The notes under the pieces are model-generated. The model was not told the DNA's origin. It did no database searches and saw only the letters and a program-made list of their open reading frames with translations. A stretch of DNA of 34,117 nucleotides from Microcaldota archaeon (GTDB taxonomy: Archaea > Micrarchaeota > Micrarchaeia > Anstonellales > Anstonellaceae): NCBI GenBank assembly GCA_026413765.1, contig JAOAKI010000005.1:1-34117 (forward strand), read 5' to 3'. The position numbers and the translations under genes are program-made. Of the stretch, positions 11,541 through 33,688 are shown one piece after another; position 1 is the first letter of the stretch, and the number at the start of each line of letters is the position of its first letter.

Positions 11541-11545
11541 ATGCA

Positions 11546-11651: not shown

Positions 11652-11673
11652 ACCAGAAGGCTGCGGGTTCAAA

Positions 11674-11689
11674 AGCCAAAGGCTGAAAA
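11674..11689 (+). other. T-loop tRNA intron (59/60), 16 bases
   Basis: A perfect bulge-helix-bulge is visible. The 4-bp central helix is TTCA (11668-11671) with TGAA (11684-11687), the 3-base bulges are AAA (11672-11674) and AAT (11688-11690), and the inner hairpin is GCC-AAA-GGC. Cutting between the second and third bulge bases gives the standard T-loop TTCAAAT. Confidence 0.88.
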
Positions 11690-11707
11690 TCCCGTCGGGC
11701 CCGCTTT

Positions 11708-12472: not shown

Positions 12473-12668
12473 TTTTTGCGGCAAGGACGCTTTGCCAGCA
12501 AAAAAACGAGCCGGCAAGCATCACAACGATTGCTGCCCCGCTTGCATGAAGCAAAGGAAGCTTAAGGTGGACAAAAAATATCAGAAGGCTTGCGCAGATG
12601 AGCATAATCTGGGATGAAACATTCAGAAGCATGCGGTTGAAAGCCACACCCTCATCCTCATAGCTCAT
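12339..12668 (-). CDS. small polytopic membrane protein, 109 aa
   Basis: It starts with ATG at 12668, overlapping the end of ksgA by 11 bases, with TGGAGGG about 5 bases upstream. The overlap and strong ribosome-binding site support a genuine coupled gene. About four hydrophobic helices are seen (14-33, 40-60, 64-82, 87-106), with a short acidic N-terminus (MSYEDEG) and the sequence ending HWWE. No catalytic motif is visible and the family is not recognised. Its last 134 bases are antisense to the end of the plus-strand gene at 11708-12472. It closes the MetAP-KsgA minus-strand run. Confidence 0.78.
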   Translation of the reverse strand: MSYEDEGVAFNRMLLNVSSQIMLICASLLIFFVHLKLPLLHASGAAIVVMLAGSFFCWQSVLAAKIIFLLSLVGIEATLISFEPWVLEPAALLTIIVAVLLFVPVHWWE

Positions 12669-13419: not shown

Positions 13420-13430
13420 AACCCACCATC

Positions 13431-14342: not shown

Positions 14343-14372
14343 AAAAACCACGACCTAATTAGGATGCTGCAT

Positions 14373-14503: not shown

Positions 14504-15769
14504 ATGCAGCATCAAATCAGAGGGGTGCTTTTTGCATTCTTTCTGTTGATTTTTGTCCAACTGGCAAATGCTGCAGGATGGTATGACAATCTCTATTATT
14601 GGATTGCCTTGTCGGTCATAATTGCTTCAGCTTTTCTTGGGATTGCCTACATGATTGGCTCTTTTTTTGAGCTGAAGATAGTTGAGGCTTGGACAAAAAT
14701 TGAGCTACAAGAATTAGTTGCTGGCGTGCTGATTGCAGTTTTTTGCGTTGGATTGATTGCAAGCGCAGACATGGCAGCAAGCTTTCTTTCTGGAAGGCAG
14801 ACAGGGGCAGCGCAATATGCGATCGATGCCATAACAAAAATAAGAGAGGATGGAAGATATATTTACCTGAAAATTGCCACCGCTTATTTCAATGCAGCAA
14901 AATATGCTTCCTATTCTTATACTGCCGGGGTGAATTTGGAAGTTGTGTCGATCAGCGTTTCTCAAAGCCCAGCTGCTGGCCTTTCTCCTTTGGTAGCAGA
15001 GCTTGGGGCGGCGCTTGATGGAGTCGCAAATTATCTTTTGTTTTTGTCTGCGCAAAAATCTTTCATAATATTTTTTGTGAATGCATCTGCAATCTTGCTT
15101 CCTGTTGGCATTTTTTTGCGCTGTTTTTCAATCACAAGAAGGATAGGGGGAACAATATTAGGAGGCATTATTGCTGCCTCTGTAATTTACCCTGCGTCAT
15201 TTGCACTTTCTTATGAGATATATTCAACATTTTCTCCAAACATGGTGGACATGGCCTCAAAAATCGACATTTTGTCTAATATTCCAAATCCTCCACTGAC
15301 AGAAGTAGTCTGCAGCCCGAAGACACAAACATTTATTCAAAGCCCTGTTGGAATAGTAATAAATAGCCTGACAAGCAGCATTGGAGGAACGGCGGGAGGG
15401 CTTATCAGCACATTTGCAAAGGCAGTAATTACTGGTGAGAATGGATGGGCGATTTTGATATGCCCACCGTTGTTTGTGTTAGGCGTAGATTTTGTAACAT
15501 GTTGGGACATGGTCGCGCGAGTATTCAAGCTCACAAAGGCTTTCTTTGCGCTGGGAATGTACCCACTACTCAGTCTTTATGGAGAAATAGATGTAAATTA
15601 TTTAATTGAAAATGCGCGGGAATATCTTCTTCCAACTACCGCAATGTTTGGGGTCCTTACTCTGATTTTTTCGCTTCTTCCAATAATAATAGGGTTGGTT
15701 GCTGCGCGGAATTTCATAATATATTTTGGAGGGGAACCACAGCTTTACGGCCTTTCGAAGTTGGTGTAA
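14504..15769 (+). CDS. polytopic membrane protein, operon paralogue 1
   Basis: The 421-residue first member of the six-protein family has a signal peptide at about 1-23. Block A (FLGIAYMIGSFFELK...AWTKIELQELVAGVLI, about 42-79) bridges the first two membrane helices. An extracellular loop follows, then block B (LLPVGIFLRCFSITRRIGG...VIYP, about 196-226). A long segment between block B and the last helix pair contains further hydrophobic stretches (about 310-350) and two cysteines. Block C at the end reads IYFGGEPQLYGLSKLV. About six to seven membrane helices in total. It lacks a large cysteine-rich domain and could represent the core of the family. The next gene begins directly after its stop. 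No named family is recognised. Confidence 0.88.
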   Translation: MQHQIRGVLFAFFLLIFVQLANAAGWYDNLYYWIALSVIIASAFLGIAYMIGSFFELKIVEAWTKIELQELVAGVLIAVFCVGLIASADMAASFLSGRQTGAAQYAIDAITKIREDGRYIYLKIATAYFNAAKYASYSYTAGVNLEVVSISVSQSPAAGLSPLVAELGAALDGVANYLLFLSAQKSFIIFFVNASAILLPVGIFLRCFSITRRIGGTILGGIIAASVIYPASFALSYEIYSTFSPNMVDMASKIDILSNIPNPPLTEVVCSPKTQTFIQSPVGIVINSLTSSIGGTAGGLISTFAKAVITGENGWAILICPPLFVLGVDFVTCWDMVARVFKLTKAFFALGMYPLLSLYGEIDVNYLIENAREYLLPTTAMFGVLTLIFSLLPIIIGLVAARNFIIYFGGEPQLYGLSKLV

Positions 15770-16693
15770 ATGATGCGGTTGTTTGTATTTTTAGTGATTG
15801 TCGGATTTGCAAATGCTTCGCAATATGCAGATGTATGCGAAATTAGTCGATTCCATCCAGATTCAGTGGGATTCATAATTTATGCTCTTGCTCTTGTCTC
15901 CTTCATAATCAGCATTGCGTATATGTATGCAAAATTTTCTCATGATGTAAAAGCTGAGACGTTTGCAAAAGATGAAGCAAAAAACCTGCTAATTACTGTC
16001 ATATTGCTTGCGGGTCTTCTTGCATTCTTCACCGGCTCATGCAGGATTGCATTCGAATATATAGGAAAAAGTCCTTTTGAAGCAGCCTACTATTATATGA
16101 ACAGCGTGCTTGTCAACAATGGCCTTTCGATTGCTCGTCAGCTTACCTACTCAAGCCTGAGCAATCAGCTTGACGCAACCGCATATCTTTTCGTAGGATT
16201 CACGCCTTACAAAGGATATGGGCTTGCGCATCGCGCAAACCTTAGGGTAGTTTCTTCACAAAAAGAGTTCCTGCTTGACTTGTATATTCCGATAATTGCA
16301 AGCATAAGTGTGCAGAAATATTTGTTACAGATGATTGAATTTGTTTCAGTAAGCGTGCTTTTGCCATTTGGCTTTGTGCTGAGAATCTTACCTGCGACAA
16401 GAGAATACGGAAATGTCTTGATAGCGTTGTTTTTTGGGCTCTATATTATCACACCTTCTCTTTATGCATTAAGCGCTCGCGAATACGCAAAAATTATGAA
16501 GGAGCCATATCGAGTGGTTGGGCATTCTTTTGAAGACAAGATGGCATTCGGTTCGCAGAGCGGAACAGCAAGCACGCTTTATAGAATAGCATCCACTCTG
16601 CCGCAAGCCATTTTTATACCAAATTTGATATTGGTGTTGCTGATAAGCTGTATCAGCGCACTGTCAAAAGCATTGAGGGCGATTGAAGTATGA
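15770..16693 (+). CDS. polytopic membrane protein, operon paralogue 2
   Basis: The 307-residue product, with a signal peptide at about 1-16, is the smallest of the six paralogues. Block A (ISIAYMYAKFSHDVKAETFAKDEAKNLL) and block B (LLPFGFVLRILPATREYGNVLIALFFG...ITP) are clear. The last helix ends ALSKALRAIEV, without the LGGE-type C-terminal signature seen in the others. An extracellular loop of about 85 residues between blocks A and B is not cysteine-rich. Start is ATG at 15770 directly after the previous TAA; a second ATG follows. Its stop overlaps the next start (ATGA). Function unknown; it may be a shortened structural subunit. Confidence 0.86.
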   Translation: MMRLFVFLVIVGFANASQYADVCEISRFHPDSVGFIIYALALVSFIISIAYMYAKFSHDVKAETFAKDEAKNLLITVILLAGLLAFFTGSCRIAFEYIGKSPFEAAYYYMNSVLVNNGLSIARQLTYSSLSNQLDATAYLFVGFTPYKGYGLAHRANLRVVSSQKEFLLDLYIPIIASISVQKYLLQMIEFVSVSVLLPFGFVLRILPATREYGNVLIALFFGLYIITPSLYALSAREYAKIMKEPYRVVGHSFEDKMAFGSQSGTASTLYRIASTLPQAIFIPNLILVLLISCISALSKALRAIEV

Positions 16694-19600
16694 CAAAGAA
16701 GATCCTGATTTTGTTGGTTCTTTTGACTGTTTTGCAACAGATGGTCCAAGGATATGAAGTTGGAGAGGGTCCGTGCTTTAACGATGCTGATTGCGGACCA
16801 GGTCTTGTGTGTATAGGGTCGATATGCCAAAGCCCAACAACACCACCCTCTCCCATTCCTGAAAGACATTCGTATGGAAAAGGACCTTGCTTTAGTGATA
16901 ACGACTGTGTTTATCCGCTTGAGTGCGATGTTTCTTCAGGAAAATGCACTCAGCCACAAAGCCTTATCTGCGAGCGTATTCCGCAGACATGGGTATTTGT
17001 CTATACTCCTTCTGGCTATTCACAACAAAAAAACATAACGCAAATGATAAGTGCTCTTGAAGAGGGAAATAAGACGAAAGGGAGCGCAGTTGCAAGTACA
17101 AGCGGCATCTACAAAGCAGGTTGGTTTTCAGACTGGAAGACCACATCAATGATTGGAGTGATGATTGCCATCTTGCTTATTTCTCTTGCAGCAATAGCAG
17201 GGTATGCGTTCAATCTAAATGAGATAAAAGCGTTCGTGAGCATTGAGCTTGGGCAAGCATTGATTTCTGTTCTTTTGGTAAGCGGGATTATAGGGGGGAT
17301 AGTATTTATTGACGAGATAGCAAATGTAATAGTGAGCACAGCGGACTTGCCAGTCGTTTGCACTCCGGACGAGCCTTGCTATATAACTGTGGCAAAACGA
17401 TATCTTGATGACATTTATTCTATAGGCTCAAAATATGCGGCTGACGCGCTCAAGAGAAGCATAAATGAGCAAAAGATTGCAAGCTTTGGAATAAACACTG
17501 TATCAAATTGGGCTACACTTCTTTATGCAGGAACAAGCATAAGGCCAAACGCTGGTAGAACAATTGAGGCAGAGCGTGCGGGGGCGATATTTGAGACAAC
17601 AAGCAAGCTTCTTGTCAGCATTTACGCGCAAAGATATTTCATAGATGTCATCGCTTTTGCGCTTGCTCCCATTTTGCTTTTGCTTGGAGTGCTTTTGCGT
17701 ACATTCTTCTTTACTCGGAAACTTGGGGGACTTCTTTTGGCTATCGGGATTGCAATCTTCGTGATTTACCCCTTAACATATGCATTCGCATGGTACACTT
17801 TGAATATCACAGTGTATGGAGAAAGAGTGGGCGCAGAAGAAGAAGGAAGCTGCCCTGTGGAGTGCAAATTAAAGCCGCCAGTTGCATTTTATATAAACAA
17901 TACTACCGGCGGAATAATTCAGTTTGAAAGCAAGCTTGACTTGAGGAGAGCTGGAATAAATCGTCTGAACTGGAAAAGCGGAGATGTCAACGGTGACGGC
18001 AATCCTGAATTTCCTGGCTTGGTTGCATGCACAAACTTGAGTGAAATAAGTACGGAAATAGAGGATAGCTGCAAAGACTGCCCGACAGAATGTAGAGAAG
18101 TTCCGCTGCCAAGGCATAGAGGAGAATGCAACAGCGAAGCTTGTGTAAAATGCAATCCTGGATGCAAGATAATGAGGCTAAGAACAGATTGCGCACAAAA
18201 ATGCAGCTTGTCAGGTTGTCCTTCGGTCTGCAGGGCCCAGCTTCCTTTTGAAAACAAATGCTATATCGCATCGAACGGCACAAAGGTTGCAGCTAACTTT
18301 TCGGTTGACTGTACAAAGTGCATAAATTGCCCGAATTGGTGTCTGCTGAAAAAACTCAATCCAGATGGCAGCATAGAGCTTGTGAGAAGAAATGAGCCGC
18401 TCTGCAAAAACAATGTTGATTGTGAACAGTGTCCCACGCAGTGCGCCTATTTGACCAAAGTTGGAGAAAGTTATGATTGTGAAGATGCAAAAGTCTGTGG
18501 CAGATGCCCAAAACCATGCAGGATCGATGCTGACTTTCAGCTATCTTCTTATGATACTGAAAATTTGATTCCAAGATATTGCAAAGCGAACCAACAAATA
18601 GCTGAGGCTTGCCAAAGATGCCCGTCTTTGTGTAAAATCCAAATCCCTCAAGATCCATTAAATGAAGAAAATCCTTCTTGCTATCCTTATCCGCAGAAAA
18701 ACTATAGGCCGCAAAACTGCACATCTTGCCCGAAATATTGCAGATTTTCAAGCTATCAATTCATCAGCAAATATTCAGCTGTTGTCAAGGAAATTACTGG
18801 GGTGCCTAGTGATTGTAAAGGTGCAGATATCTTCTGTGATAGTTCTGCCTGCCCTTCAGACTGCCGTGCATCACAAACGCCGCCAACCTGCAGAGAGTTC
18901 AACGAGTACGATGAAGACAATTTTAATTTGTGCAGAAAATGCCCGCCGGAGGGAAGAATAATACTTCGGCACACAAATGCTGCTGGTCAGCAAGACTATT
19001 TTGGTCCTCCAGCAATAAACACTCAATTTTATGGCTCAGACTACTCAACTATTAAGTGCGATGAAGAAAATTGCTCTTCTTCTTGCAAAAGATTGTTAGA
19101 AGTTCCTTCTGGACCAGGTTGTATGGATTTTGACCCTTCTGCTGGCACCTCTTCTAACTGCACAAAATGCCCGATTGAATGCAGAGTTATATTTTCAAAC
19201 CAAGGCATGCTTTCAAACAACTGCGATAATTATGCTTGCGGAGAGCAAGACTGCCCAAGCAATTGCAAAGTTCACGTTTCTTCTAATCAAGGCTATGTTT
19301 GCAGCGAATATTTTGGAAATGGCAGGAGAGGAGATTACGTGAGCTACAGTTTTGGTTGCTATAACGTAACTAATCCTTCGACAAGCCAGGGATGCATAGA
19401 TAAGACTAGCGAGGAAACTTGCGAGTTATTGAGAGAACAAGGATGCAAATGGCTCCGAAATGACGATATTACTATTCCGATAGGCCAAAGAAACCCCCCA
19501 TACAACCAATTTGATTCGTGCAAACAATGCCCAGAGCATTATAGAATAAAAGGGTTTGATTTCAGAAATCTGCAAATTGACTGCAGCCTTTCATCTTGCC

Positions 19601-20121
19601 CGGATGAATGCCGAATTGAAATTCCAAAGAAAAACGGCGGGCACCAAGAATGCAGAGAATACATATCAAGCAGCTTGCCTTATTTTGGATGCCCGATGCT
19701 TTGCAGAAGAATTAAGTCAGACATGCCTCCTTCTCCATATTGCAATAATCCAACCTGTTTGCCGCCAATTGAAAAAACTGATTTGAACAATTGCACATTT
19801 GATCCAGCCCCCCAAAGAGTTTGCGAGGGCTGCTTTGATTGCCCATATGATTGCTTGTTTGAGCCGCCTGTCAGGACAGATTGCGCGGAGTTGTGCAGCA
19901 AAGAAGAAATGGTTGAACAAAGATTGTCTCCTGGAGAGTTTGTGTCAAGTTTCCCCGGAGCTGCAAGTGGAGCGGTGGATGTGAGAAATGTTGGTGTGCT
20001 GATGATGCCTGCTCTTGTCCTTCCATTATTTTCAATAGTCATTGTGATATCATTTGTGAGAGTGCTTTCATCAATTTTGGGTGGAGATATTGACATACCA
20101 GGATTGAGTAGGATAATATGA
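16690..20121 (+). CDS. giant polytopic membrane protein with a CxxCPxxC-repeat ectodomain, paralogue 3
   Basis: This 1143-residue protein has a signal peptide (about 1-21) and two N-terminal cysteine modules of the form GPCF-x-D-x-DC-x(5)-C (about 28-95). Block A (AGYAFNLNEIKAFVSIELGQALISVLL, about 172-198) and block B (ILLLLGVLLRTFFFTRKLGGLLLAIGI...VIYP, about 323-358) follow. Between block B and the last helix is a region of about 670 residues (about 387-1055) with many C-x2-C-P-x2-C-[RK] modules. I count 14 CPxxC, two variant CxxxC and two degenerate copies. The chain ends with a helix and RVLSSILGGDIDIPGLSRII. The repeats must be extracellular if the topology matches the paralogues, and are probably disulfide-bonded. 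Starts and stops overlap both neighbours by 4 bases. Function unknown. Confidence 0.88.
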   Translation: MTKKILILLVLLTVLQQMVQGYEVGEGPCFNDADCGPGLVCIGSICQSPTTPPSPIPERHSYGKGPCFSDNDCVYPLECDVSSGKCTQPQSLICERIPQTWVFVYTPSGYSQQKNITQMISALEEGNKTKGSAVASTSGIYKAGWFSDWKTTSMIGVMIAILLISLAAIAGYAFNLNEIKAFVSIELGQALISVLLVSGIIGGIVFIDEIANVIVSTADLPVVCTPDEPCYITVAKRYLDDIYSIGSKYAADALKRSINEQKIASFGINTVSNWATLLYAGTSIRPNAGRTIEAERAGAIFETTSKLLVSIYAQRYFIDVIAFALAPILLLLGVLLRTFFFTRKLGGLLLAIGIAIFVIYPLTYAFAWYTLNITVYGERVGAEEEGSCPVECKLKPPVAFYINNTTGGIIQFESKLDLRRAGINRLNWKSGDVNGDGNPEFPGLVACTNLSEISTEIEDSCKDCPTECREVPLPRHRGECNSEACVKCNPGCKIMRLRTDCAQKCSLSGCPSVCRAQLPFENKCYIASNGTKVAANFSVDCTKCINCPNWCLLKKLNPDGSIELVRRNEPLCKNNVDCEQCPTQCAYLTKVGESYDCEDAKVCGRCPKPCRIDADFQLSSYDTENLIPRYCKANQQIAEACQRCPSLCKIQIPQDPLNEENPSCYPYPQKNYRPQNCTSCPKYCRFSSYQFISKYSAVVKEITGVPSDCKGADIFCDSSACPSDCRASQTPPTCREFNEYDEDNFNLCRKCPPEGRIILRHTNAAGQQDYFGPPAINTQFYGSDYSTIKCDEENCSSSCKRLLEVPSGPGCMDFDPSAGTSSNCTKCPIECRVIFSNQGMLSNNCDNYACGEQDCPSNCKVHVSSNQGYVCSEYFGNGRRGDYVSYSFGCYNVTNPSTSQGCIDKTSEETCELLREQGCKWLRNDDITIPIGQRNPPYNQFDSCKQCPEHYRIKGFDFRNLQIDCSLSSCPDECRIEIPKKNGGHQECREYISSSLPYFGCPMLCRRIKSDMPPSPYCNNPTCLPPIEKTDLNNCTFDPAPQRVCEGCFDCPYDCLFEPPVRTDCAELCSKEEMVEQRLSPGEFVSSFPGAASGAVDVRNVGVLMMPALVLPLFSIVIVISFVRVLSSILGGDIDIPGLSRII
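17851..19854 (+). repeat. protein-level repeat array, C-x2-C-P-x2-C-[RK] modules
   Basis: Sixteen CxxxC cores (CPVEC, CPTEC, CNPGC, CPSVC, CPNWC, CPTQC, CPKPC, CPSLC, CPKYC, CPSDC, CSSSC, CPIEC, CPSNC, CPDEC, CPMLC, CPYDC) and two broken ones (CPPEG, CPEHY) recur at irregular spacing of about 20-60 residues. Most are preceded by C-x2 and followed by R or K. DNA identity between units is low, so the array is old. Confidence 0.85.
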
Positions 20122-22319: not shown

Positions 22320-22320
22320 G

Positions 22321-23649
22321 GTGTTGAAAAAAGTGAGCATGCTTGCGGTTGCTTTCATTTTGCTTTCACAGCTAGCTTGGCCTTCATGCGCAACCTTAGG
22401 GCAAAAATGCACGACAGTAGGATGCTGCTCGCCATATTTTTGCGACACACGAAGCAATCCGCCCGTTTGCAGAGACTGTCTTCCTTTAGGCTCAGATTGC
22501 TCTAGCGCTAGAGACAAATGCTGTGGAGCCCCAGCTGTGCAGTGTACCGGGACTCCGGCTGTTTGCACTGTCTCTTCTACTGCTGCTCCTATTTGCGGCG
22601 CATCAAGTAAAGCAGAGCTTATTTGGCTTGCTGCTCTTGCAGCTCTGGCAACTGCAATACTGATTGCGCTTGTCTATATGGCAGGAGAAATCATGCAAAA
22701 TCCAAGGCTTTTGACATGGGCAAAGACAGAAAGTAGCCAGATTTTTGCGAGCATAATAATTGTGGGGGCAGTGATAGGGATGATAGAGCTTTTCTGCTCT
22801 ATTCAAATAGGAGAGGTTGCCTCAATATTCACCCCCCTGCCAAAGATTTTTCAGCCCTACAAGGAAAAATCGATTTATGATGGCGCAATCATATATCTTG
22901 AAAAATTGATGGATATTGCCCGCTCCAATTTTCAGGGGTTGCGCTATCTTGCTGGCGCATATGAAATCAGAATCAGCTATACTAAAATGGTTTGTAAAGG
23001 AAACTGCTTCATTTCTCTCGTCGGATACAATGAGGCAGAGCATGGAGGGGAGACGCTGCATCTTGCGCTGATAAACAATCTTTTAAATTCAGCCACTATC
23101 TCCTACCTAACTGCCGCATTTGAATATTTCACGCTGCAATACATACTAAATGGATTGTTCTTGGTCCTGCTGCCCATTGCAATAATATTGAGGTCGTTGC
23201 CATTCATGAGGCAATTTGCAGGCACAATTGTCGCAATTTGCATATCACTATACATAATGTATCCTGCGATGCTTGTTTTCAATGCATCAATTGTTCCGGG
23301 AGTTGCTCCGCCTTCTCTCTTATTCAGCTCTTGTACATGCGCAGGAGTAGATATTTTTGCTTATGAAAACGGGCGGGCGACTGTGGGGTGCAAAGGAAGA
23401 GCAAATGAATGCTATGATGAAGAAGCACTTGCAAGAGCAGGGCTTGAGATGGCCGGGTTTGGGGCGTCACCAAGGCTTCCACACGTCCCAAATTCGATTG
23501 ACGGCGATGTCAAGGCAAATGCTTTAATTTTTATTATTACTGTCTTTTTTGCTGCATTCAATTTCATTGTGATAGTTGCTTTCGCAAGAGGGATGGCGCG
23601 CTTGCTGGGAGAAGAAGTAGACATAAGCAAGTTGGGGCAAATGATATGA
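22321..23649 (+). CDS. polytopic membrane protein with two N-terminal cysteine modules, paralogue 5
   Basis: The 442-residue product has a signal peptide (about 1-20) and two C-x-CC-type modules at about 21-83 (KCTTVGCCSPYFC, DCSSARDKCCG), like those in paralogue 4. Block A (ALVYMAGEIMQNPRLLTWAKTESSQIFAS) and block B (LLPIAIILRSLPFMRQFAGTIVAICIS...MYP) follow. A cysteine-bearing loop (CTCAGV...VGCKGRANEC) precedes the last helix, and the tail is ARLLGEEVDISKLGQMI. The start is GTG at 22321 (or TTG at 22324), one base after the previous stop. Its stop overlaps the next ATG. I infer the same extracellular orientation for the cysteine modules as in paralogue 4. Confidence 0.87.
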   Translation: MLKKVSMLAVAFILLSQLAWPSCATLGQKCTTVGCCSPYFCDTRSNPPVCRDCLPLGSDCSSARDKCCGAPAVQCTGTPAVCTVSSTAAPICGASSKAELIWLAALAALATAILIALVYMAGEIMQNPRLLTWAKTESSQIFASIIIVGAVIGMIELFCSIQIGEVASIFTPLPKIFQPYKEKSIYDGAIIYLEKLMDIARSNFQGLRYLAGAYEIRISYTKMVCKGNCFISLVGYNEAEHGGETLHLALINNLLNSATISYLTAAFEYFTLQYILNGLFLVLLPIAIILRSLPFMRQFAGTIVAICISLYIMYPAMLVFNASIVPGVAPPSLLFSSCTCAGVDIFAYENGRATVGCKGRANECYDEEALARAGLEMAGFGASPRLPHVPNSIDGDVKANALIFIITVFFAAFNFIVIVAFARGMARLLGEEVDISKLGQMI

Positions 23650-24749
23650 AGATTGCTTTGTTTTTGGTATTTCTTATTGTGCTTCAAAACGCGACAATTC
23701 AGGACATCATTCAGGCAGAAAGAGGAAAATACGAGGCAAAACTTGGAAAAGGGACAGAATGGTATGGCCTTGCAATATTGGCGATTGGTTTATGCCTGTT
23801 TTTCAATATTTTGCTTTACATGATTGGCACCTTTTTGCAGGCAGAAAACATCAAAAGGTACGCCAAAGCTGAATTTTTTCAGCTTTTTGCTTCCTCTCTT
23901 ATGATATTTTTTGCAGTTGCTCTCCTTTTTGAACTCTCATCAGGCGGGGCGTTTGGAGTCATGGAGAGGCTGTTGGGTAGCGGAGGAAGCGTGGCGTGCA
24001 ATGCGGTACCTGGAGGAAGGTACTATTTTTGGAATATGCAGGCTTACGGCGGAGGTCCGATAGGAGCATTCAAATGCAAGACGCAGGAAAAAATAGATGC
24101 GCTTGACAGGCAATATGACAACATATTCAAAGCAAATAAGGCACAGGAAGCGCTGACGTCGACATGCATAAGCATTTTTGGCTTTCCTATATGGTGCTGG
24201 AGTTGGGATTTGAGCTATCATAAAAAAGTAGAGGAAGCCCATCTGCTCTGCTCAAAAATTACTGGCCTTTTGATTTCATTGCATGCTCAATATGCTCTCG
24301 CAGAGTATGTGCAAAGAAATATGCTTTCGGTGTTTTTGCCTTTAGGCTTGCTCCTTCGCATTATTCCTTTGACGCGCGGAGTTGGCGGGCTATTTATCGC
24401 GATAGCCATAGGATTTTACTTTGTTTGGCCAACGTTTTTTGTGCTCACCGACCCGACATTTGTAAAGGTAGATGACAAAAAGTTTGACGACAAGCTTGCA
24501 GGAATGTGCTTCAGCGGATTCAAAGGAGTTGCGGTCATAGTCAATACTGCATTGAATATAGGGGGAGGGATGGATGCGAGTGCGCTTGCAAATGCTCAGG
24601 GAAGGCAGCTTCTTTATGAAATCACAATCGGCTCAATGTTTTATCCATTTGTCGCACTTGCAATCACGTTGATATTTATACGCTCCGCCACACCGCTGCT
24701 TGGCGGAGAGTTGGGAGAATTTATGAGAATGGTTGCGAGGCTGAGCTGA
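23646..24749 (+). CDS. polytopic membrane protein, operon paralogue 6
   Basis: The 367-residue product has a hydrophobic N-terminus (about 1-17) that may be a signal peptide. Block A (ILLYMIGTFLQAENIKRYAKAEFFQLFASS) and block B (FLPLGLLLRIIPLTRGVGGLFIAIAIG...VWP) are among the clearest of the set. The loop between them holds about seven cysteines and several tryptophans (IFGFPIWCWSWDLSY). The C-terminus reads RSATPLLGGELGEFMRMVARLS, a slightly altered version of the family tail. It lacks a large ectodomain. ATG at 23646 overlaps the previous TGA, and its own TGA overlaps the next ATG by one base. Confidence 0.87.
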   Translation: MKIALFLVFLIVLQNATIQDIIQAERGKYEAKLGKGTEWYGLAILAIGLCLFFNILLYMIGTFLQAENIKRYAKAEFFQLFASSLMIFFAVALLFELSSGGAFGVMERLLGSGGSVACNAVPGGRYYFWNMQAYGGGPIGAFKCKTQEKIDALDRQYDNIFKANKAQEALTSTCISIFGFPIWCWSWDLSYHKKVEEAHLLCSKITGLLISLHAQYALAEYVQRNMLSVFLPLGLLLRIIPLTRGVGGLFIAIAIGFYFVWPTFFVLTDPTFVKVDDKKFDDKLAGMCFSGFKGVAVIVNTALNIGGGMDASALANAQGRQLLYEITIGSMFYPFVALAITLIFIRSATPLLGGELGEFMRMVARLS

Positions 24750-27700
24750 TGAAAATAACGGACTTAGCAATAATTGCTACAATTCTTTGCTTATTTTTCC
24801 TGTTTGGATGCTCCAAAAATGAATACATTCCTTGCTGCCAGAGGCAATACATATTCGATTTGAATGGGCCTGACCCGCAAAAAATCCTTCACGACCCAAG
24901 ATGCAATCAAACAGATGGGACATATTTTGGAATATGCGATCCTGCAACAACAACGTCCAGCATGGCAAACTGCACAAATGGAAAAAGCTGCTCCCAGCTT
25001 GATAAGGCAACCTGCGTCAAAACGAATAATTGCTATTGGAATGAAACCTCAAGGAGGTGCATAGGCGACACTGCTTATTGGTTCATGCCAATATGTGCAG
25101 ACCCTGCTCCGTCAAATTGCATCAATGACAAGTGCGCTGCCATGGTGTGCGGCTATTCAAAAATAAGCATAGGGCCTGCCCCGACTGCGAAAGACTTTGA
25201 CGAAGAGAAAAAGAAAGGCCCTATTGAAGTAAGCTCGCAGGCAGATCCTCTTTCTGGAGTTGGACTGCTTGGAAAAAGCTGCTCCATCAAAACGATGGAC
25301 CAAAATCTGTACAATAAAGTCGTGCAATCCAAAGGAAACCTGTGGGTCAATTCTTTCAGATTTGGCGTTGGAAGAAGCTTTTCCGACTTTGAGCAGGCGC
25401 GATATTTCTTCCCAATTTCAGACAGATTTTGCTCAACGAATATGCTTGGAGGCAAAGATAGATTTATGAATTATTTGAATGCGCCCTCAACTTGGTGCGC
25501 AAGCTATTCTGGAAACGTTTATCATTGCTCAAAGACAGGAATGAACTTTTCAAGCCAGCAGAAATGCCAAGATTATTGCTTTGGCTTGCTTCCACCCCAA
25601 GACTGCGAAGTCATCAGCACCAGTACAAAATATCGATGCATTGAAACTGAATTTTTGTACAATGATCAAAAAGACTGCCAGCTGGAGTGCCCAATAATTT
25701 CACAACCAGATCTTTGTTCAAACGACCAGACCAAATTCCCATTTCTTGAGCCTGACGCACGATACAAAAGCGTGCTTCAGGCAGACTATATATACGGTAC
25801 TAACAACTATAAGAGTTGGTGTACGTTGTGGAAACCAAATTGCGAAGGGTACAAAGAGGCATGCAAGCAAGAAAATTGGAGAAACCTTGGAAAATTTGGA
25901 AACTATCACCACGGCTGTGACGATTTCGAGCCTTATGCTTGCCCGGAAGATAAGCTGGACACAAGAGAGTGTTTGTGGAGCCCAGGTATTGGTGGCCACC
26001 GGCAGGGGATGCGGTGGATGAACAACAGACAATTCACACTCGAGCTTGACACTATGTATTATGTAGATCGGCTAAAAAAGCAAATAGAAAATGCTCCGCA
26101 AAAAGCCACGATGTTTGAGTGCGAGCATGGTGGCCAGTGCCTTTCAGGAGTGTGCGACAAGACCCAATACAGCAGAGAAACATGTAAAAGCACTGCTGGT
26201 GGACCTGTTGAATGTGGATGTAAAAAAGAAGGGGGATACAGGCTAAACTGCGGAATGTTTGGAGACGGAAGCACTTATAACACCAGCTATTATATGCTGG
26301 AGGCGATCAACGCGTCTCCAAACAAATTTGGATTCGAAGCTACTTATTCTTCTGTTATCTTTGAGGAAGGAAGATTTTCGTCCGAACAAGGAACTGTTTA
26401 TATATTCACACAACCTTATGGCGCTAATATACCGCCAAAACCGAGCACGACATTCCAAATTTTGAAAAATTGCCAGATTCAGCCACTACAAAGCGCCGTT
26501 TATTTTTCTGATGCGCAAGTTGGCAGAAGCAAAATCGACCAAATAAAAATGTGTCTAATTGTTGAGCCAGAAGAGCCTGCAAAAATTCAGCTTCTTCCAG
26601 AAAATTATCCTGGCTTGACTATAAATGATGATAATTGCACGCTCAATGGAGAAGATTTGAAAGGATCTCGGAGAACAAATGAAGAAGGAAAGATTGTCTA
26701 TGTGTCAGCGTATCATTTCTTACCTAAAGAGGAGAATGGAGAGGGAGCAATTGGAGTATGTAAGCTTAATGATATTCCAGCATTTGCAACACCGCCATAT
26801 TTTGATCTTACAAGGTTGGGATGGTGCATGCCTTGCACTTATGCTACACTTGCAGTCCAGAAAATAAATTGGAATCTGAGGGGATGGAGATACAATTGCT
26901 ATGCCTTTAGAGCCTATTACAATTATAGTGCAAGCAATGGCACAATTCCGACTATGAATCCTGCTTATAAGGTAGGGTGGGGGCGCAGCACAAGAGAAAA
27001 CGCCTACGATGTTTCTCCTGTCAAAAGAGATTTTGTTTTGTTTGGCAGAAGAGCTGAAAGGCAGAATGGAAATCTCGCAAGGGGATATTATAGCAGCCGA
27101 TTGGGCAATTTTATAAGTGAATATGTATGCGAGGATGGATGGGGCAATATATGGGTCTACCCAACTTATCCAGAAGAGAGAGTTGAAATGCGTTATTCTA
27201 ATGCAAAACAGACATGGCACTTTCAATTGATGATCGACCCTTCGCTCCCATATGTTGTGCAAAAGACAAGGGATTATCTTGCTGCAGGAGTGATACCTAT
27301 ATTGGATATCAGCGAAGGTGGACCGTCTGTTTCGGCTGTAGTATATGACGACGTCCTTACTTTCTTAGGCTTGCCAGTTAAAGAAAGTATAAGATTAGCT
27401 ACTCAGACTAAAAAGTTGCCTGATGTGGATGGGGCAGTAATTTACGCAATAGCAAATATTTCACATATCAACAACGAAAGCTTGAACGGAAGCGTTGTGG
27501 CTGGAGACGGCGTATATAATTCAGAGTTGGCCTCATATTTGGGAATCAAACAGAATAGCAACAATCAAAAGATAGTTGAGCTCAAAGGAGGGAAGAATTT
27601 GACTATTTATAGCGCTGTGTTTTTCAAAGAGACGAGCAAAAATCCGCCGTTGATTGCAATTGATGTAGGAAATCCGGAAGGAAAAGAGCAATTCGTTTTT

Positions 27701-28849
27701 GGGACCCTTGATGAATTTTTCTACAAGCCAGGTGAAAACGGGCGAGAGTGGAGGATGAGAAATGGGGTGCCAGACAAATATCCCGGATATGTCGATTTGC
27801 TTTTGCAAGAATGGGTTCCAATGTGCAACAAGGGAGGGGTAAGCGATGAAGAAAAAATTGAGAAGGAATTCGAGTACAGGATGAACCTCAGTAGGCAATT
27901 TCTCAAGAATTATTCGAGACCAACCATCGTCTGGAGATTCCATTTCACAAGCAATACATATTGCAACATTGACAAGTTTTTGAGCTATTTATTCGACCAT
28001 CAAGCTCAGATGGTGGATTCGGGAATCATCGGACTTATATATGATGCTTGGCTTACAGAAGACGGAAAGCCTTATGTGAATTATAGTCATGCGAACTGGG
28101 ATGGCGGAGATGCGACTGGAACTACTGACAAGATAGAAAATTCTGTCCTTACTCTTGAGAGATTGGGGATGCAAAGCAAAACAGATGTTTTTTGCTCTCT
28201 CCAAAACCATTCGAAGAAAATTTTGGGGATGACAAGGCTTACCTATGGGCAAAAAGTTTATGCGGAAAACAAAAGCTGCATGTGCGAAGTATGCAAAGAT
28301 GAAGATGTCATTAGTGGAGCGTGCCAGAAGCCGCATGAAGACTATCAGCCAGGAGATGAGAATTTGCCTCAACTTTATTGCATGGATGGGGAAAAATGCC
28401 AAATGCCTGATTCATCTTGGACAAACTACTCTTATTATCGCTGCCCTGCCATGTGTGTGAATGCAACTGCATGCAAAAAATGCAAAGATATTGTTCCTCC
28501 CACGGCAGGAAGCAACCTGTTTTGCAGAATAGAAACAAGTGACAATAGAATTTTCAGAGTCCTGAAAAATTATTCTCAGCTTACAGATGATTATTGGGAC
28601 ATTATTGCGGCTTTGCAAAACAAGGACAAATGTTGCTTGAATATGAGTGACCCACAAAACAACGAAGAAATAAAATACACATACGGAAAAATAGAGGGGG
28701 TCAAGCAAAGGACTGAATTTATCCAATATCCAAAAAGAGGAGACATTGGCATAGATTGCGGCCGCGCACCAGACACATCGGTATTGAAATACTGTAATGT
28801 TAAAATACCTTTAAGCAATAATCATTTGGCTTGCTGGAAGGTTGGATAA
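24749..28849 (+). CDS. giant cysteine-rich putative lipoprotein
   Basis: The 1366-residue product begins with a lipoprotein-type signal: a hydrophobic core ending LFLFGC-like, with candidate Cys21 followed by SKNEY. There is no other membrane segment, so it is predicted to be secreted and lipid-anchored. Residues about 22-520 are cysteine-rich with many aromatic residues and N-x-S/T sites. The middle is less cysteine-rich. At about 835-1100 a pattern of strands and helices (AAGVIPILDISEGG, PTIVWRFHF, GIIGLIYDAWLTEDG) suggests a TIM-barrel, perhaps glycoside-hydrolase-like domain, but I cannot name catalytic residues with confidence. The C-terminal ~170 residues are again cysteine-rich, with one RCPAMC unit like those of paralogue 3. 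It is the only member of the operon with no polytopic region besides the last gene. Confidence 0.83.
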   Translation: MKITDLAIIATILCLFFLFGCSKNEYIPCCQRQYIFDLNGPDPQKILHDPRCNQTDGTYFGICDPATTTSSMANCTNGKSCSQLDKATCVKTNNCYWNETSRRCIGDTAYWFMPICADPAPSNCINDKCAAMVCGYSKISIGPAPTAKDFDEEKKKGPIEVSSQADPLSGVGLLGKSCSIKTMDQNLYNKVVQSKGNLWVNSFRFGVGRSFSDFEQARYFFPISDRFCSTNMLGGKDRFMNYLNAPSTWCASYSGNVYHCSKTGMNFSSQQKCQDYCFGLLPPQDCEVISTSTKYRCIETEFLYNDQKDCQLECPIISQPDLCSNDQTKFPFLEPDARYKSVLQADYIYGTNNYKSWCTLWKPNCEGYKEACKQENWRNLGKFGNYHHGCDDFEPYACPEDKLDTRECLWSPGIGGHRQGMRWMNNRQFTLELDTMYYVDRLKKQIENAPQKATMFECEHGGQCLSGVCDKTQYSRETCKSTAGGPVECGCKKEGGYRLNCGMFGDGSTYNTSYYMLEAINASPNKFGFEATYSSVIFEEGRFSSEQGTVYIFTQPYGANIPPKPSTTFQILKNCQIQPLQSAVYFSDAQVGRSKIDQIKMCLIVEPEEPAKIQLLPENYPGLTINDDNCTLNGEDLKGSRRTNEEGKIVYVSAYHFLPKEENGEGAIGVCKLNDIPAFATPPYFDLTRLGWCMPCTYATLAVQKINWNLRGWRYNCYAFRAYYNYSASNGTIPTMNPAYKVGWGRSTRENAYDVSPVKRDFVLFGRRAERQNGNLARGYYSSRLGNFISEYVCEDGWGNIWVYPTYPEERVEMRYSNAKQTWHFQLMIDPSLPYVVQKTRDYLAAGVIPILDISEGGPSVSAVVYDDVLTFLGLPVKESIRLATQTKKLPDVDGAVIYAIANISHINNESLNGSVVAGDGVYNSELASYLGIKQNSNNQKIVELKGGKNLTIYSAVFFKETSKNPPLIAIDVGNPEGKEQFVFGTLDEFFYKPGENGREWRMRNGVPDKYPGYVDLLLQEWVPMCNKGGVSDEEKIEKEFEYRMNLSRQFLKNYSRPTIVWRFHFTSNTYCNIDKFLSYLFDHQAQMVDSGIIGLIYDAWLTEDGKPYVNYSHANWDGGDATGTTDKIENSVLTLERLGMQSKTDVFCSLQNHSKKILGMTRLTYGQKVYAENKSCMCEVCKDEDVISGACQKPHEDYQPGDENLPQLYCMDGEKCQMPDSSWTNYSYYRCPAMCVNATACKKCKDIVPPTAGSNLFCRIETSDNRIFRVLKNYSQLTDDYWDIIAALQNKDKCCLNMSDPQNNEEIKYTYGKIEGVKQRTEFIQYPKRGDIGIDCGRAPDTSVLKYCNVKIPLSNNHLACWKVG

Positions 28850-31800
28850 ATGAGGGGTGCGCTGATTTTTTTGCTTTTTTTTTCTTTCGTTTTTGCCCAG
28901 CCAACACAAGTGTGCCCGGTAAATCCAGTGCCCTCTTATTTGGACATAAGGATTGATGAAAAGGCAGGCGAAATCAGCATCTTTGTCTATAATATAAGCG
29001 GGGATTATGAAAAGAGCCCGATCGTCAATGGCCTGGTCTATCGGGTCAATCTAAGCGGCATGCAGCAGAACCCACCAAAGTCTCCAACTATCTGCTATGA
29101 TGTGACGGACGAAAACGGAAGAATTTTGCATACGTATGACTTAAATGCAAGCGGCTGCATCGATTATTGGTATATTTTTTGCCCAAATGACGCAAACACA
29201 AAAGAATGCCTCAATGGGAGCGGCCTGACAAACATTCCTCAAAAGTACAACGATACGCAGCCATGCAGAACTGCCAGAACTCCTCTCAATTATGTAGATT
29301 ATTTGCCGTCGCACAATGAATTTTATATATGCAACACGCCAGCAGTGGATCTGGCTCCGCTTTGCTGGCCGCTTATGCTTATTTTCTCTCTTTTGCTGGG
29401 AGCATCTTTCGCAATTGGAAGAAATCCTTTCTCTTTTTTTGACTTTTCTGTCCCGAGGATGGGAAGAGGGCGGCAGTATTCGATAAGAACACAGCAAAAA
29501 AGCTTTGATATCCTTCAATATATATCTGGTTTGGACAGGTTGTCTGAAAAGACGACCGGAAAGAGCGTAACTGGTTCTCTTTCCAGGGGACTGAATAGCA
29601 TAATTTTTGCGGTTGTTGGATTCTTAGAAAGAACTTCTCAGTGGCTTTATTTTAAATTCGGTGGGAAGACCGATTTGGAGAAACTGTATGCGTTAAAAGC
29701 CGACATAGAGGAGGGGAAAGCGAAGCTAGCAGAGCTCAAAGCACAGTATAGCCGGCTTGGGGAAGGCAAAGAGAAAGAGGCCGTAAAGAAGCAAATTCAA
29801 AATCTAGAAAAAAGAATTGCAGAGTTAGAAGGAATTGCAAAACGTATGGAAGAAAAGTTGAAAAACACAGAAAGCAACAAGATGAATAACCTGTCAAACA
29901 AGCAAGTGATGGAGAACGAGAAGAAGACAGGAGAAGAAAATCAGAAGGGGGAAGAAAGCAAAGGTAAAACAACACTTGAAGATCAAAAAAATAAATCAAC
30001 CCTTGCGTCCTCACAACAGACTGTCCTTTTTGGTGCACCAAACATCATTGAGTTGTTATATGCTGCTTTTCGAGGACTAAGTGAGAAAGAAATGGAGGAG
30101 GCGGTAGCAACGAAAAACAGGTTTGAAAATTTCAAGAAAGAGATGGGTATAGATGAGAAATCAAGCTGGGTTCAAAAGCTTGCGGTCGCGCTGCTTTTTG
30201 GATTAAAAGAGCAATTTAATTTGAGTGCATTTTCATCCGACCAGTGGGCTAAAAGTTTGGCAAACCTGTTTCTACAGTGGCTTGCTTTCAGAGAGCGAAA
30301 TAAAGGGAGAGACAGCTTGGAAAAATTCGTGGGCAAACTTGAAAGCATATTGGGAAGAGACAGCTTTCTTTTAGCTTATTATATGAGCAGCCCTGCAGAT
30401 CTCCCAACTGGATTGAGAATTTTTTCTGGTGCAATAGAATATGGCAAAGCCGAAGTAAAGAAGATTACTACCAAAGGTGATGAAGACAAGGTAATATTGA
30501 AGGGGAAAATAGTAGAGTATGAGGGAAAAGAGTGGCTTCTTATGAGTATAGGAGAAGAAGGAGGCACTAAGAAGGTCTTGATTAATGACAAGGGAGAAAG
30601 AATGGAGGTTATAGAAGAAAAAGTAGGCACTAAGAAGGTCTTGATTAATGACAAGGGAGAAATAAAGGATGTTTCGTCTGGTGCAACACTTAACGAAAAG
30701 GGTGGGGGGTATCTTGTTTTTGATGCTGGGGATGTGAAATACACTCTCTACAAAGGAGAGAACAATAAAGAGGTAGCTGCATTCAAAAAGAATGCTGCAA
30801 GTTATTATTCTGCATTAGCCACACAGCTTGAATTGAAGTTAAGCGCCAGTCTTAGTGAGGGGGAAATAAGACAAAAGTATGAAGAAAAGTTTTTGGAGAT
30901 GACTGGCACAAAAAGAAAAGAAAACCAGAAACTAGAAGACTATTTTAAGGAATGCATCGAAGCTGTAAAAGACAATAAAGCGTTGGCAGAAGAACTGAGA
31001 GGGCGCTTAAAAGAATACTATGCAGAAATAATGGAAAGAACAAATGCTGTGGAAATCGCAAAAGCTACGAGAACATATGCCGACGCGCTAGAAGATAGTT
31101 ATCGTGCGTTGAAAAAAGGAACTGCTAATGATATAAACTATGCATTTTTCAAGGAGAGAATTGCTCGCGATATTCTTGAACTGGCCGCAAATGATATGCA
31201 AAGAACCTCAGAAATTATCCAGGAGATGAACCACAGAATTTCAGAAGCGCAGAAGATGACAGCAGAAGAGAGGCAAAGTGCTCTAAACAAACTAAAAACA
31301 GACTATGAAAACAAAATTAAGGAGCTTACCGATATTGAAAAGAAAACGGAGGAAACACATGAAGAGTATGAGGAAAAGTGCAAGAATAAATTAGTAGAAG
31401 ATGGAGAGTTGGCCAAGCTCGGGGCTCTTGAAAAAATAATTATGGAGCGGAAATTGGTTGAGGCAGTCTATAGTGCAACTGATGAGGATCTGAAAACGCT
31501 TAAAAGGATGGATGAATGGCTGGTTCTTCTTGACGCTAATATAAGAAAGAGAAATGAGATACTTCAAGGATTCTATGTAATGGCATCTGTCGCGAATACT
31601 GTAAATTTGGATATAGAGATTCTTTCGCGTGGTTATGTCAATGCGACTGATGTAAGAAATGCCCATATTGTTCTTTCGGATGATGTTAAGCCATATTTGG
31701 ACGCAATGTTTGACAAGATAGGCAAAATCCAATTACTTTCAACGTATTTGATATCGCAGAGCGAGTTAGGAAAAGATATCAAGACGGCTATTGACAACGC

Positions 31801-33688
31801 AATGGGAGCATTCAATGAGATTTTTAAGCAAGAAGAAGATAAGAAAAAAGAAGAACCGATAAAGCAACAGACAACAGATACGCAGCAGCCTAGTCATTCT
31901 AAAGTGGAAGTGGCATCAGCTTTTCGAATATTTCAACGAACACTAAAGAAGGGTGGGCTTTCTAGCGAGAATTTAGAAATAATAAACAACATCGTAACAG
32001 CAGTCTGTAATACAACAAACTTGCAAGGCGCCAAAATTGTAATTACAGTTCCACGTGAAAATTATGGGGCAACGTTTGAGTGGGGGTTTAATACTACGCT
32101 TGGCCAAAATATGGCGGATGAGGCGGTAGATAAATTAAGGGATAAAGGAGTCTCTCTAGATGCTCTGAAAGGAAGACTGATAGGAGAAGGAGTCGGCCTA
32201 AACAAAATCAAAGTATTGAAGAACAGTAGCGAGGATTATGATGAGCTGAAGTTAGATAAAACCTTCAGTAAAGAAGGAGACGCCACTGTTATTTTAGGAA
32301 GGAAAGGACAAACAATTGGAAACATTACGCTTGAAGAGGGAAAAGTTTATATTGCCTGCTACGAAGGTGGAAAGATTAATGTTTATGAGAATAACGGTGC
32401 GAAGATCCAGATTAAGGTCGATTTTTTTGATGTAACTGGAGAGCAGCTACTGAACACCTTAGACAAAGATAAAAATTTCTTTAACCAAATGAAAAATGAG
32501 ATAAACAGCGTGGATATAGTTAAGTCTGACGGGACAAAGGAAACTATTAATCTTGGAAACATCAGTGAAGCTAAATTTAGGGATATGCTTCGTGGAAAAC
32601 TCAGTGAAGATGAATTTAAGAAGATGCTTAGGGAATGTAAGATTTATTTCAATTTTAAGAATATAGAAGATAGCGAAGTAAGAAAGAAGCTTTATGGAGA
32701 CCAATATAAAATAGAGGCAACAATTATTAAACAGGAGGAGGTGCAAAAGCAGGAACCGCCACCTCCACCAACAGAGGAGCCGGAAGTCAAGCTAAACAAG
32801 ATGGATGTGTTTAAGGTCAATGCTTTGAGTTTAGCAAAAGATGCGACAGTGTTAGTCGATATACTTTCTCAATATTCAAAGGTGAATGAGAGGTATACCC
32901 AAGGCATAAACGAAGCACTGTCGCAAGGGCTTTTTGGACAAATAGAGTTAAAAAAAGGTGACAACCCGATAAGCTGGGATGAATTTCTGAACCTTAACAA
33001 TAAAGAGAAAAATAGTGTATTGAAAGAGAATATAGATCGACTTTTTGTGGAAAGTCTGCAAAATCAAAGCAAAATATTGCAACGTTATGTGAAAAATAAT
33101 GCGATTCCAGAAGAAATGAAGGATGAGGCAGAAGGGCTCAGGAAGAACATCCAAGATGCACTTGTGCATTACAAAGAAACCCAAAAAAACAGCACTTTTG
33201 ATCCAAATTCTGCTTTGAGATATTTGCAAGAGGTTTCTAATTTATCTGAAGCGATATATAGGTATCCGTCCTCATCTTCGCCAATATGGAAAAGGAAAAC
33301 AGAATATGAGGATCTGATGCTTTCAAAGACTCACGAATGGGCAGGAATGGTCGGATTTCCTTATGACTTTACAGACAAAATGAGGTATTTTGTCCACGGA
33401 GACGTAGACCGCAATGAGTATGAGAAAGAGATAAAACAGCGTCTGTCTTATTTGGAAGAATATGTTTCAAGCCTCCCCCCGTCAGATTCTCATAAAGAGG
33501 CTCAGAAAAGGGTCTGGGAAACTCGTCCGAGATCTATTTTGTTTTCACTACAAGAGAATATTGGAGAAACATATGATCCTCATCTTCGCGAGCCTCCTCC
33601 GCTCCCCCCTCCAATCGGAGAGCATTGGGATCGGGATGAATGGGTGAAATGGAGAGAAGATATGAAAAGATGGAGGAATGGTCAATAA
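28850..33688 (+). CDS. giant anchored protein with long helical, probably cytoplasmic, C-terminal region
   Basis: The 1612-residue last gene of the operon starts directly after the previous TAA. It has a signal peptide (MRGALIFLLFFSFVFA), an ectodomain of about 155 residues with about nine cysteines, and one membrane helix near 173-190 (LCWPLMLIFSLLLGASFAIG). A basic segment follows (GRGRQYSIRTQQ), so the remaining ~1400 residues should be cytoplasmic. They include a short hydrophobic stretch near 243-260, a coiled coil at about 275-350 (many E/K heptads), long helical regions at 640-1000, and beta-pattern segments around 540-640 and 1060-1260. A proline run (PPPPPTEEPE) lies near 1305, and the end is PPLPPPIGEHW. 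No ATPase or nucleotide-binding motif is seen. Its codon and base usage is more AT-rich than the upstream genes. Confidence 0.83.
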   Translation: MRGALIFLLFFSFVFAQPTQVCPVNPVPSYLDIRIDEKAGEISIFVYNISGDYEKSPIVNGLVYRVNLSGMQQNPPKSPTICYDVTDENGRILHTYDLNASGCIDYWYIFCPNDANTKECLNGSGLTNIPQKYNDTQPCRTARTPLNYVDYLPSHNEFYICNTPAVDLAPLCWPLMLIFSLLLGASFAIGRNPFSFFDFSVPRMGRGRQYSIRTQQKSFDILQYISGLDRLSEKTTGKSVTGSLSRGLNSIIFAVVGFLERTSQWLYFKFGGKTDLEKLYALKADIEEGKAKLAELKAQYSRLGEGKEKEAVKKQIQNLEKRIAELEGIAKRMEEKLKNTESNKMNNLSNKQVMENEKKTGEENQKGEESKGKTTLEDQKNKSTLASSQQTVLFGAPNIIELLYAAFRGLSEKEMEEAVATKNRFENFKKEMGIDEKSSWVQKLAVALLFGLKEQFNLSAFSSDQWAKSLANLFLQWLAFRERNKGRDSLEKFVGKLESILGRDSFLLAYYMSSPADLPTGLRIFSGAIEYGKAEVKKITTKGDEDKVILKGKIVEYEGKEWLLMSIGEEGGTKKVLINDKGERMEVIEEKVGTKKVLINDKGEIKDVSSGATLNEKGGGYLVFDAGDVKYTLYKGENNKEVAAFKKNAASYYSALATQLELKLSASLSEGEIRQKYEEKFLEMTGTKRKENQKLEDYFKECIEAVKDNKALAEELRGRLKEYYAEIMERTNAVEIAKATRTYADALEDSYRALKKGTANDINYAFFKERIARDILELAANDMQRTSEIIQEMNHRISEAQKMTAEERQSALNKLKTDYENKIKELTDIEKKTEETHEEYEEKCKNKLVEDGELAKLGALEKIIMERKLVEAVYSATDEDLKTLKRMDEWLVLLDANIRKRNEILQGFYVMASVANTVNLDIEILSRGYVNATDVRNAHIVLSDDVKPYLDAMFDKIGKIQLLSTYLISQSELGKDIKTAIDNAMGAFNEIFKQEEDKKKEEPIKQQTTDTQQPSHSKVEVASAFRIFQRTLKKGGLSSENLEIINNIVTAVCNTTNLQGAKIVITVPRENYGATFEWGFNTTLGQNMADEAVDKLRDKGVSLDALKGRLIGEGVGLNKIKVLKNSSEDYDELKLDKTFSKEGDATVILGRKGQTIGNITLEEGKVYIACYEGGKINVYENNGAKIQIKVDFFDVTGEQLLNTLDKDKNFFNQMKNEINSVDIVKSDGTKETINLGNISEAKFRDMLRGKLSEDEFKKMLRECKIYFNFKNIEDSEVRKKLYGDQYKIEATIIKQEEVQKQEPPPPPTEEPEVKLNKMDVFKVNALSLAKDATVLVDILSQYSKVNERYTQGINEALSQGLFGQIELKKGDNPISWDEFLNLNNKEKNSVLKENIDRLFVESLQNQSKILQRYVKNNAIPEEMKDEAEGLRKNIQDALVHYKETQKNSTFDPNSALRYLQEVSNLSEAIYRYPSSSSPIWKRKTEYEDLMLSKTHEWAGMVGFPYDFTDKMRYFVHGDVDRNEYEKEIKQRLSYLEEYVSSLPPSDSHKEAQKRVWETRPRSILFSLQENIGETYDPHLREPPPLPPPIGEHWDRDEWVKWREDMKRWRNGQ
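30562..30662 (+). repeat. exact 38-base direct repeat, 63-base period
   Basis: Copies at 30562-30599 and 30625-30662 are identical over 38 bases and are 21 codons apart. They encode GTKKVLINDKGE twice in the giant last gene. The perfect identity implies a recent in-frame duplication. Confidence 0.92.

Follow-up and report, generated by a model that had tools for sequence, protein, structure and literature searches.

A likely channel module of six tandem VirB6-like paralogues in a Ced-like machine of Micrarchaeota

What does an archaeon build from six tandem genes that share one membrane core, and why are there six of them? This question was raised by a Microcaldota archaeon of the Micrarchaeota (assembly GCA_026413765.1), in which the window, that is, the whole stretch of 34,117 nucleotides that was analysed, is the entire 34-kb contig C14 of a genome totalling 840 kb. 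Eight plus-strand open reading frames (ORFs), here named g1 to g8, fill positions 14504-33688; g1 to g6 carry the shared core, and g7 and g8 encode giant proteins. The genome of the window is labelled G000, with contigs labelled C, loci L, other genomes G and families f. We consider it likely that the operon is the membrane channel module of a chromosomal type IV secretion or Ced-like trans-envelope machine of Micrarchaeota, and the comparisons below indicate that its VirB6-type channel is probably a six-subunit hetero-oligomer.

Six paralogous cores in a fixed order

The translated cores start with a signal peptide or an N-terminal transmembrane (TM) helix, continue with about five core helices and carry highly divergent extracellular insertions. 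When g1 to g6 were aligned with six paralogues from the same genome, all three conserved blocks (A, B and C) described in an earlier note on this DNA were recovered, and the translations bore out its claim of a different extracellular insertion in each protein. In g1 numbering, R206 and P230 were invariant, and E67, R212 and G409 were at least 90% conserved. Block C, which had been counted in five of the six proteins, was indeed missing from g2, and variant forms of it end g1 and g6. Pairwise BLASTP of g1 to g6 gave weak yet significant matches reaching 3e-8, and a PDB sequence search with the 12-paralogue profile matched zero chains. The membrane core, not the ectodomains, was the best-conserved part of the six proteins.

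A second six-core operon is present in the same genome (contig C1, 116816-131745), with its cores c1 to c6 colinear with those of the window and with a lipoprotein gene, c7, and a divergently transcribed giant gene, c8. The BLASTP best matches from the window to this operon were mostly position-specific (g6-c6 2e-19, g2-c2 4e-12, g1-c1 6e-11, g3-c3 3e-9). Both the window operon (type I) and the second operon (type II) recur throughout the order. A maximum-likelihood phylogeny was interpreted by position and type for 102 cores from 17 operons. Each position formed one clade holding both operon types, with bootstrap values of 98, 100, 98, 72, 75 and 99 for positions 1 to 6, and all position-by-type clades were monophyletic (88-100). 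Positions 1, 3 and 6 of G053, which belongs to another family of the class, grouped with their counterparts. Because each position clade spans both operon types, the six-fold split predates the operon duplication. As read from this tree, the subunits had already diverged into six at the time of that duplication, have kept a fixed order and are not interchangeable; one clade per position in a fixed order is the pattern expected for specialised parts of this kind.

The core family occurs in every one of 39 relatives; sampling across the phylum showed it in 134 of 146 genomes, far beyond chance. It was not found in the sampled genomes of f16, f18 and f20, nor in four of the six f21 genomes; f16, f18, f20 and part of f21 are the few Micrarchaeota families without the whole system. 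Beyond the phylum, coverage was a single scan of named genomes, in which the matches were Micrarchaeota plus two loci titled just "archaeon". No core relative was detected in the viral contigs and plasmids searched, and thus there was no sign of a mobile element.

Partner proteins, VirB6 likeness and competing explanations

AAA_10-type ATPases were present in nearly all relatives. The ATPase cassette encodes three proteins: one of about 265 residues whose N-terminal part holds two TMs (two-TM protein), an ATPase of about 500 residues with the Walker A motif GVTGAGKS or GITGSGKS, and one of about 250 residues that combines a coiled coil with a winged helix. The ATPase matched DUF87 (8e-17), AAA_10 (5.8e-13) and the TraG P-loop (1.3e-9), all three over the cut-off, and aligned with the C-terminal half of conventional VirB4 (E 5.9e-20). 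It resembles HerA too, and HerA relatives score comparably, which leaves its clade placement within VirB4/HerA ambiguous. The nearest NCBIfam models were CedB (5.9e-22) and CedD (4.5e-22), and its 78 bits did not reach the equivalog cut-offs of 700 (CedB) and 600 (CedD). The two-TM protein aligned with CedB residues 31-195, the segment preceding the ATPase domain, a weak match (E 4e-4) in the expected place. Read jointly from these alignments, the two proteins are a CedB/VirB4-like ATPase made as two proteins, and by the same comparisons the system is related to Ced but not its equivalog.

The two-TM family was searched in the same 146 genomes and found in 135. Both families were present in 134 genomes and absent from 11, with one discordant genome (Fisher p 1e-15, a nominal value since the genomes are related). 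In other families the components are also co-encoded in single operons, at L114, L116, L175, L176, L177 and L178, although not in the window's own genome. L175 belongs to a putative genome of the co-cultured Ca. Mancarchaeum acidiphilum Mia14 (chromosome 952,257 bp; PMC5498576) and has the order pilin-like gene, 243-aa gene, six cores, two two-TM proteins, ATPase, 161-aa gene and winged-helix (wHTH) protein. L177, from a putative genome of the co-cultured Ca. Micrarchaeum harzensis (chromosome 989,838 bp; PMC8975820), shows this arrangement minus the pilin, and L116 of G078 resembles L177 in its six-core, two-TM and ATPase genes without a pilin. Six cores with two two-TM proteins occur at L117 of G053, two pilins precede the cores at L114 of G081, and G023 and G030 have the cassette immediately after a giant gene that occupies the place of g8. 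Hence both the operon order and a VirB4-type ATPase, whose recurrence in relatives the earlier note had left to be checked, do recur.

A minimal operon consisting of a pilin, one core, a two-TM protein and an ATPase was found at L176, L178, L180, L103 and L105, the first two of which lie in the putative Mia14 and M. harzensis genomes beside their six-core operons. The minimal-system core matched the six cores at E 1e-34. VirB2/TrbC-type pilin-like genes occur within or beside core operons in several families and as arrays in the window's genome. Of ten pilin-like proteins, six matched TrbC/VirB2 and/or T4SS_pilin, with E-values of 7.2e-6 and 1e-4 for TrbC/VirB2 and 2.4e-4 for T4SS_pilin.

For a direct comparison with VirB6, conventional mobile modules resembling a type IV secretion system (T4SS) were available in 21 of 245 Micrarchaeota genomes, comprising a 316-aa VirB6-like protein and a VirB4 with a PrgI domain (L111:6150-11754; L141-L170), with several copies in G003. 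A first hhalign comparison with few conventional VirB6 sequences gave only E 0.0025, and a deeper profile of 24 such proteins matched the cores in block B at E 7.8e-7 (91.7%), over about 52 columns. Five unrelated multi-TM families used as controls gave P 0.16-0.72. The VirB6 homology of the cores is thus likely, being carried mainly by gene context and this block B profile match. The earlier note, which saw a VirB6/TrbL likeness in general shape only, was too cautious in view of this E-value and of operons that hold cores together with a VirB2-like pilin and a VirB4-like ATPase. CedE and CedA were weak matches for a few cores; CedE (NF053657) matched g6 residues 202-268 with 18 bits, short of its cut-off of 400. 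An AlphaFold2 model of g6 had a mean predicted local distance difference test score (pLDDT) of 74.7, with most core helices at about 80-97, and a Foldseek search of this model against BFVD gave no significant match.

Several results weigh against a T4SS/Ced-like channel module. The hhalign match between cores and VirB6 spans just 50-60 columns or so around block B. Taken by itself, the core of the minimal system matched conventional VirB6 at only E 8.5e-4. Pfam TrbL (PF04610) exceeded its gathering cut-off in 0 of 21 genomes, with no match of any kind in G000. Foldseek of the g6 model against the PDB returned nothing significant, the R388 VirB6 structure (7o3v) ranking 44th with E 5. The CedE match was seen in 2 of 55 members, with E-values near those of sporadic matches to unrelated membrane families. 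Every pilin match lay under the Pfam curated cut-off, and the likeness of the two-TM protein to the N-terminal part of conventional VirB4 was unclear (E 0.054). The window holds no ATPase, as had been noted before, but its genome does: the cassettes sit on other contigs, C5 and C10. In the ATPase tree, the two six-gene operons do not simply have a cassette each: C5 falls with six-core systems and C10 with minimal ones.

The strongest alternative proposes a separate membrane machine with a borrowed HerA/VirB4-type ATPase, not descended from a T4SS, that serves, for example, S-layer assembly, DNA segregation or surface-protein export and whose block B likeness to VirB6 is shallow or convergent. 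The negative TrbL and Foldseek searches, the short hhalign span and the HerA-like character of the ATPase agree with it, as do the neighbours of the type II operon, which adjoins secD/secF in G000, G003 and G009 (L009:8907-11761; L050; L052) and lies near ftsZ genes in G029 and G034. However, VirB2-like pilins and the CedB-like N-terminal partner share operons with the cores, the multi-TM control profiles fail to match, and the minimal pilin-core-two-TM-ATPase operon has the VirB2-VirB6-VirB4 make-up of Ced/Ted systems (PMC9905601). We regard this explanation as unlikely.

It is considerably less probable still that the six proteins are mutually replaceable alternatives for a single homo-oligomeric VirB6 channel, among which the cell would switch to vary its antigens or host range, a role suggested for surface components that are duplicated in host-associated bacteria. 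The extracellular insertions do vary strongly in length and Cys content across members and genomes, but each position has its own clade and the same place across the order, no conversion between positions was seen, and all six genes are intact in one overlapping operon. An adhesion complex without transport, in which the cores merely anchor variable ectodomains and the ATPase link is coincidental, would suit the knottin-like Cys-rich ectodomains of g3, g4, g5 and c1 and a window without an ATPase, but it is the least credible of the three. Conservation peaks in the membrane core, and 145 of 146 genomes have either both the cores and the CedB-N-like protein or neither; in several, these genes share a single operon.

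If the operon is the channel module of a T4SS/Ced-like machine, the six cores, in one copy each or in a fixed ratio, would assemble in the cytoplasmic membrane as a single hetero-oligomeric ring or pore, onto which the two-TM protein would dock the hexameric ATPase. ATP hydrolysis would then power pilin polymerisation or substrate passage via the pore, and the pilin-like proteins would form a pilus or plug. In g3-g5, c1 and some pilins, the Cys-rich ectodomains would point outward and contact the S-layer or a partner cell, with g7 as a putative outer scaffold and g8 as a putative cytoplasmic one. The machine would most likely serve to exchange macromolecules with the archaeal host that Micrarchaeota rely on.

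Genes of the window operon and their surroundings

The eight ORFs lie at the coordinates given before (Table 1), and the genes abut at g1-g2 and g7-g8, overlap by 4 bases at g2-g3, g3-g4 and g5-g6 and by 1 base at g6-g7, and leave a 1-base gap at g4-g5, in keeping with the single operon proposed earlier. A Pfam scan of all eight window proteins found no family over the cut-off.

Table 1. Genes of the window operon and pilin-like loci of the same genome
Feature	Description	Coordinates	Strand	Basis
g1	VirB6/CedA-like core, position 1, 421 aa; C-terminal end FGGEPQLYGLSKLV	14504..15769	+	alignment, BLASTP, position-1 clade
g2	core, position 2, 307 aa, smallest, without block C tail	15770..16693	+	alignment; position-2 clade, ultrafast bootstrap (UFBoot) 100
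g3	core, position 3, 1143 aa	16690..20121	+	alignment, position-3 clade in tree
g4	core, position 4, 733 aa; N-terminal knottin-like Cys-rich ectodomain of ~400 residues	20118..22319	+	alignment, tree
g5	core, position 5, 442 aa, GTG start; short N-terminal knottin-like Cys-rich domain	22321..23649	+	alignment, tree
g6	core, position 6, 367 aa	23646..24749	+	alignment, AlphaFold2 model, tree
g7	putative lipoprotein, 1366 aa, lipobox-like LFGC	24749..28849	+	translation; also follows position 6 elsewhere among type I operons
g8	one-TM giant, 1612 aa, long cytoplasmic region	28850..33688	+	translation, comparison with c8
C13 locus	pilin-like	L137:5090-5709		
C7 locus	pilin-like	L138:4503-5139		
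C10 locus	pilin-like	L139:4366-4695		
C15 locus	pilin-like	L140:4349-4663		

The insertion of g3 comprises about 700 Cys-rich residues, is predicted to be extracellular and lies after the block B helices and before the last TM; it is a long run of CPxxC-type Cys motifs without a Pfam match. Shorter knottin-like Cys motifs were also seen in g4, g5, c1 and one pilin. Under the Pfam cut-offs, g4 had a weak Dickkopf_N match and g5 a UPF0506 match (E 0.0038). The two giants fit their earlier description as a putative lipoprotein and a protein with a long cytoplasmic region: the sole TM-like segment of g7 is its N-terminal lipobox-like helix, and in g8 a signal peptide and a short ectodomain precede a single TM at about residues 171-189 and a very long cytoplasmic part. 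A post-TM motif, GRNPxSxFD, is common to g8 and c8.

Upstream of the operon, sequence inspection revealed a housekeeping block at 9529-14351 (TBP-like, L21e, KsgA-like and methionine aminopeptidase-like genes). The same block adjoins the type I operon in G009 and G027, which suggests a stable chromosomal site. The type II lipoprotein (L010:4539-6746, equal to G000 C1:129538-131745) bears a domain of the SLT lytic-transglycosylase type (PF01464, E 2.2e-5), in an archaeon. At least five genomes (G000, G002, G003, G007 and G014) have this domain close to type II cores, and it is possibly a VirB1-like feature. Many families encode an uncharacterised protein of about 750-870 aa after the six-core ATPase cassette (L099:11528-14113; L116:5917-8322).

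The pilins of C13 and C7 stand in tandem and have a near-identical core, VYAGGQMMGAETRARANVWATAALVGAI, with variable C-termini, one of them with a Cys-rich tail. Three of the four pilin contigs of G000 stop inside or just past pilin genes, and pilin arrays therefore probably broke the assembly. In total, 13 genes of this genome are VirB6-like, two ATPases are split, and the pilin-like genes number at least six, some of them broken at contig ends. The core of its single-core system is located at C10:58425-59369. A separate ATPase cassette for each six-gene operon was ruled out by the ATPase and two-TM trees, in which the second cassette groups with single-core systems.

Known systems and meaning for Micrarchaeota

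Like the Micrarchaeota system, the DNA import system Ced of the Sulfolobales (CedA, CedE, CedB, CedD and CedA1) and Ted of the Thermoproteales are chromosomal archaeal systems with a VirB2-like pilin, a VirB6-like polytopic protein and a VirB4-like ATPase (PMC9905601, PMC11868833). Whereas Ced and Ted have one or two channel paralogues, Micrarchaeota have six in tandem, give the ATPase and its N-terminal half a gene each, frequently with a second paralogue of the N-half, and add a giant lipoprotein and a giant one-TM protein. The window genome further differs in holding two six-gene operons plus a single-core system, and the cores have no recognisable sequence-level orthology to CedA. In Saccharolobus, CedA and CedE are two paralogues for which a hetero-oligomer was proposed, and archaea are stated to lack VirB3 and VirB8 homologues (PMC11868833). 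Since VirB6 of model systems is a pentamer (PMC12857230) and the CedA/CedE hetero-oligomer is a proposal, six dedicated subunits would be a real departure.

The T4SS of the Rickettsiales (Anaplasma, Ehrlichia) likewise has a tandem array of paralogues, there of VirB6 type, whose extensions are long and divergent, and its owners too depend on a host (PMC7648143). This is an analogy only; the system is bacterial, and Anaplasma has four VirB6 paralogues. Nanohaloarchaea, also DPANN symbionts, combine VirB4/TraG-type ATPases with giant membrane-anchored surface proteins (SPEARE) proposed to act on the host; there, however, the giant protein itself bears the ATPase, and no VirB6 is reported in PMC10266531. 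Patescibacteria share small host-dependent cells, widespread T4SS parts and tandem VirB2 arrays (PMC12102498), but they are bacterial and their expanded arrays are pilins, not VirB6. The conventional mobile T4SS of Micrarchaeota has a VirB6 that aligns with core block B, but with a single VirB6 and a fused PrgI-VirB4. In the open-access literature, no description of the six-core array or its channel architecture was found, and VirB genes were not mentioned in the articles on Mia14 (PMC5498576) and M. harzensis (PMC8975820), as searched. Judged by sequence comparison, a channel of six tandem VirB6-like paralogues is an apparently undescribed variation on T4SS/Ced-like systems.

A bolder proposal, to which we give somewhat less than even credence, is that of an ancestral, chromosomal and near-universal machine whose six VirB6 paralogues form an obligate hetero-hexamer, a symmetry-broken ring matching the hexameric VirB4 ATPase, which exists beside a one-VirB6 version in the same cell and serves host contact. 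Cryo-tomography of ARM-1 has imaged an envelope barrel of 21 nm that docks host nanotubes (PMC11329633); speculatively, this barrel could be such a machine.

As an envelope machine that is near-universal in Micrarchaeota, including putative genomes of co-cultured strains, the system provides a defined gene set for testing exchange between DPANN archaea and their hosts. If the proposal is true, a six-subunit VirB6 channel beside a one-subunit version in one cell would be a rare case of the evolution of a secretion pore from symmetric to asymmetric.

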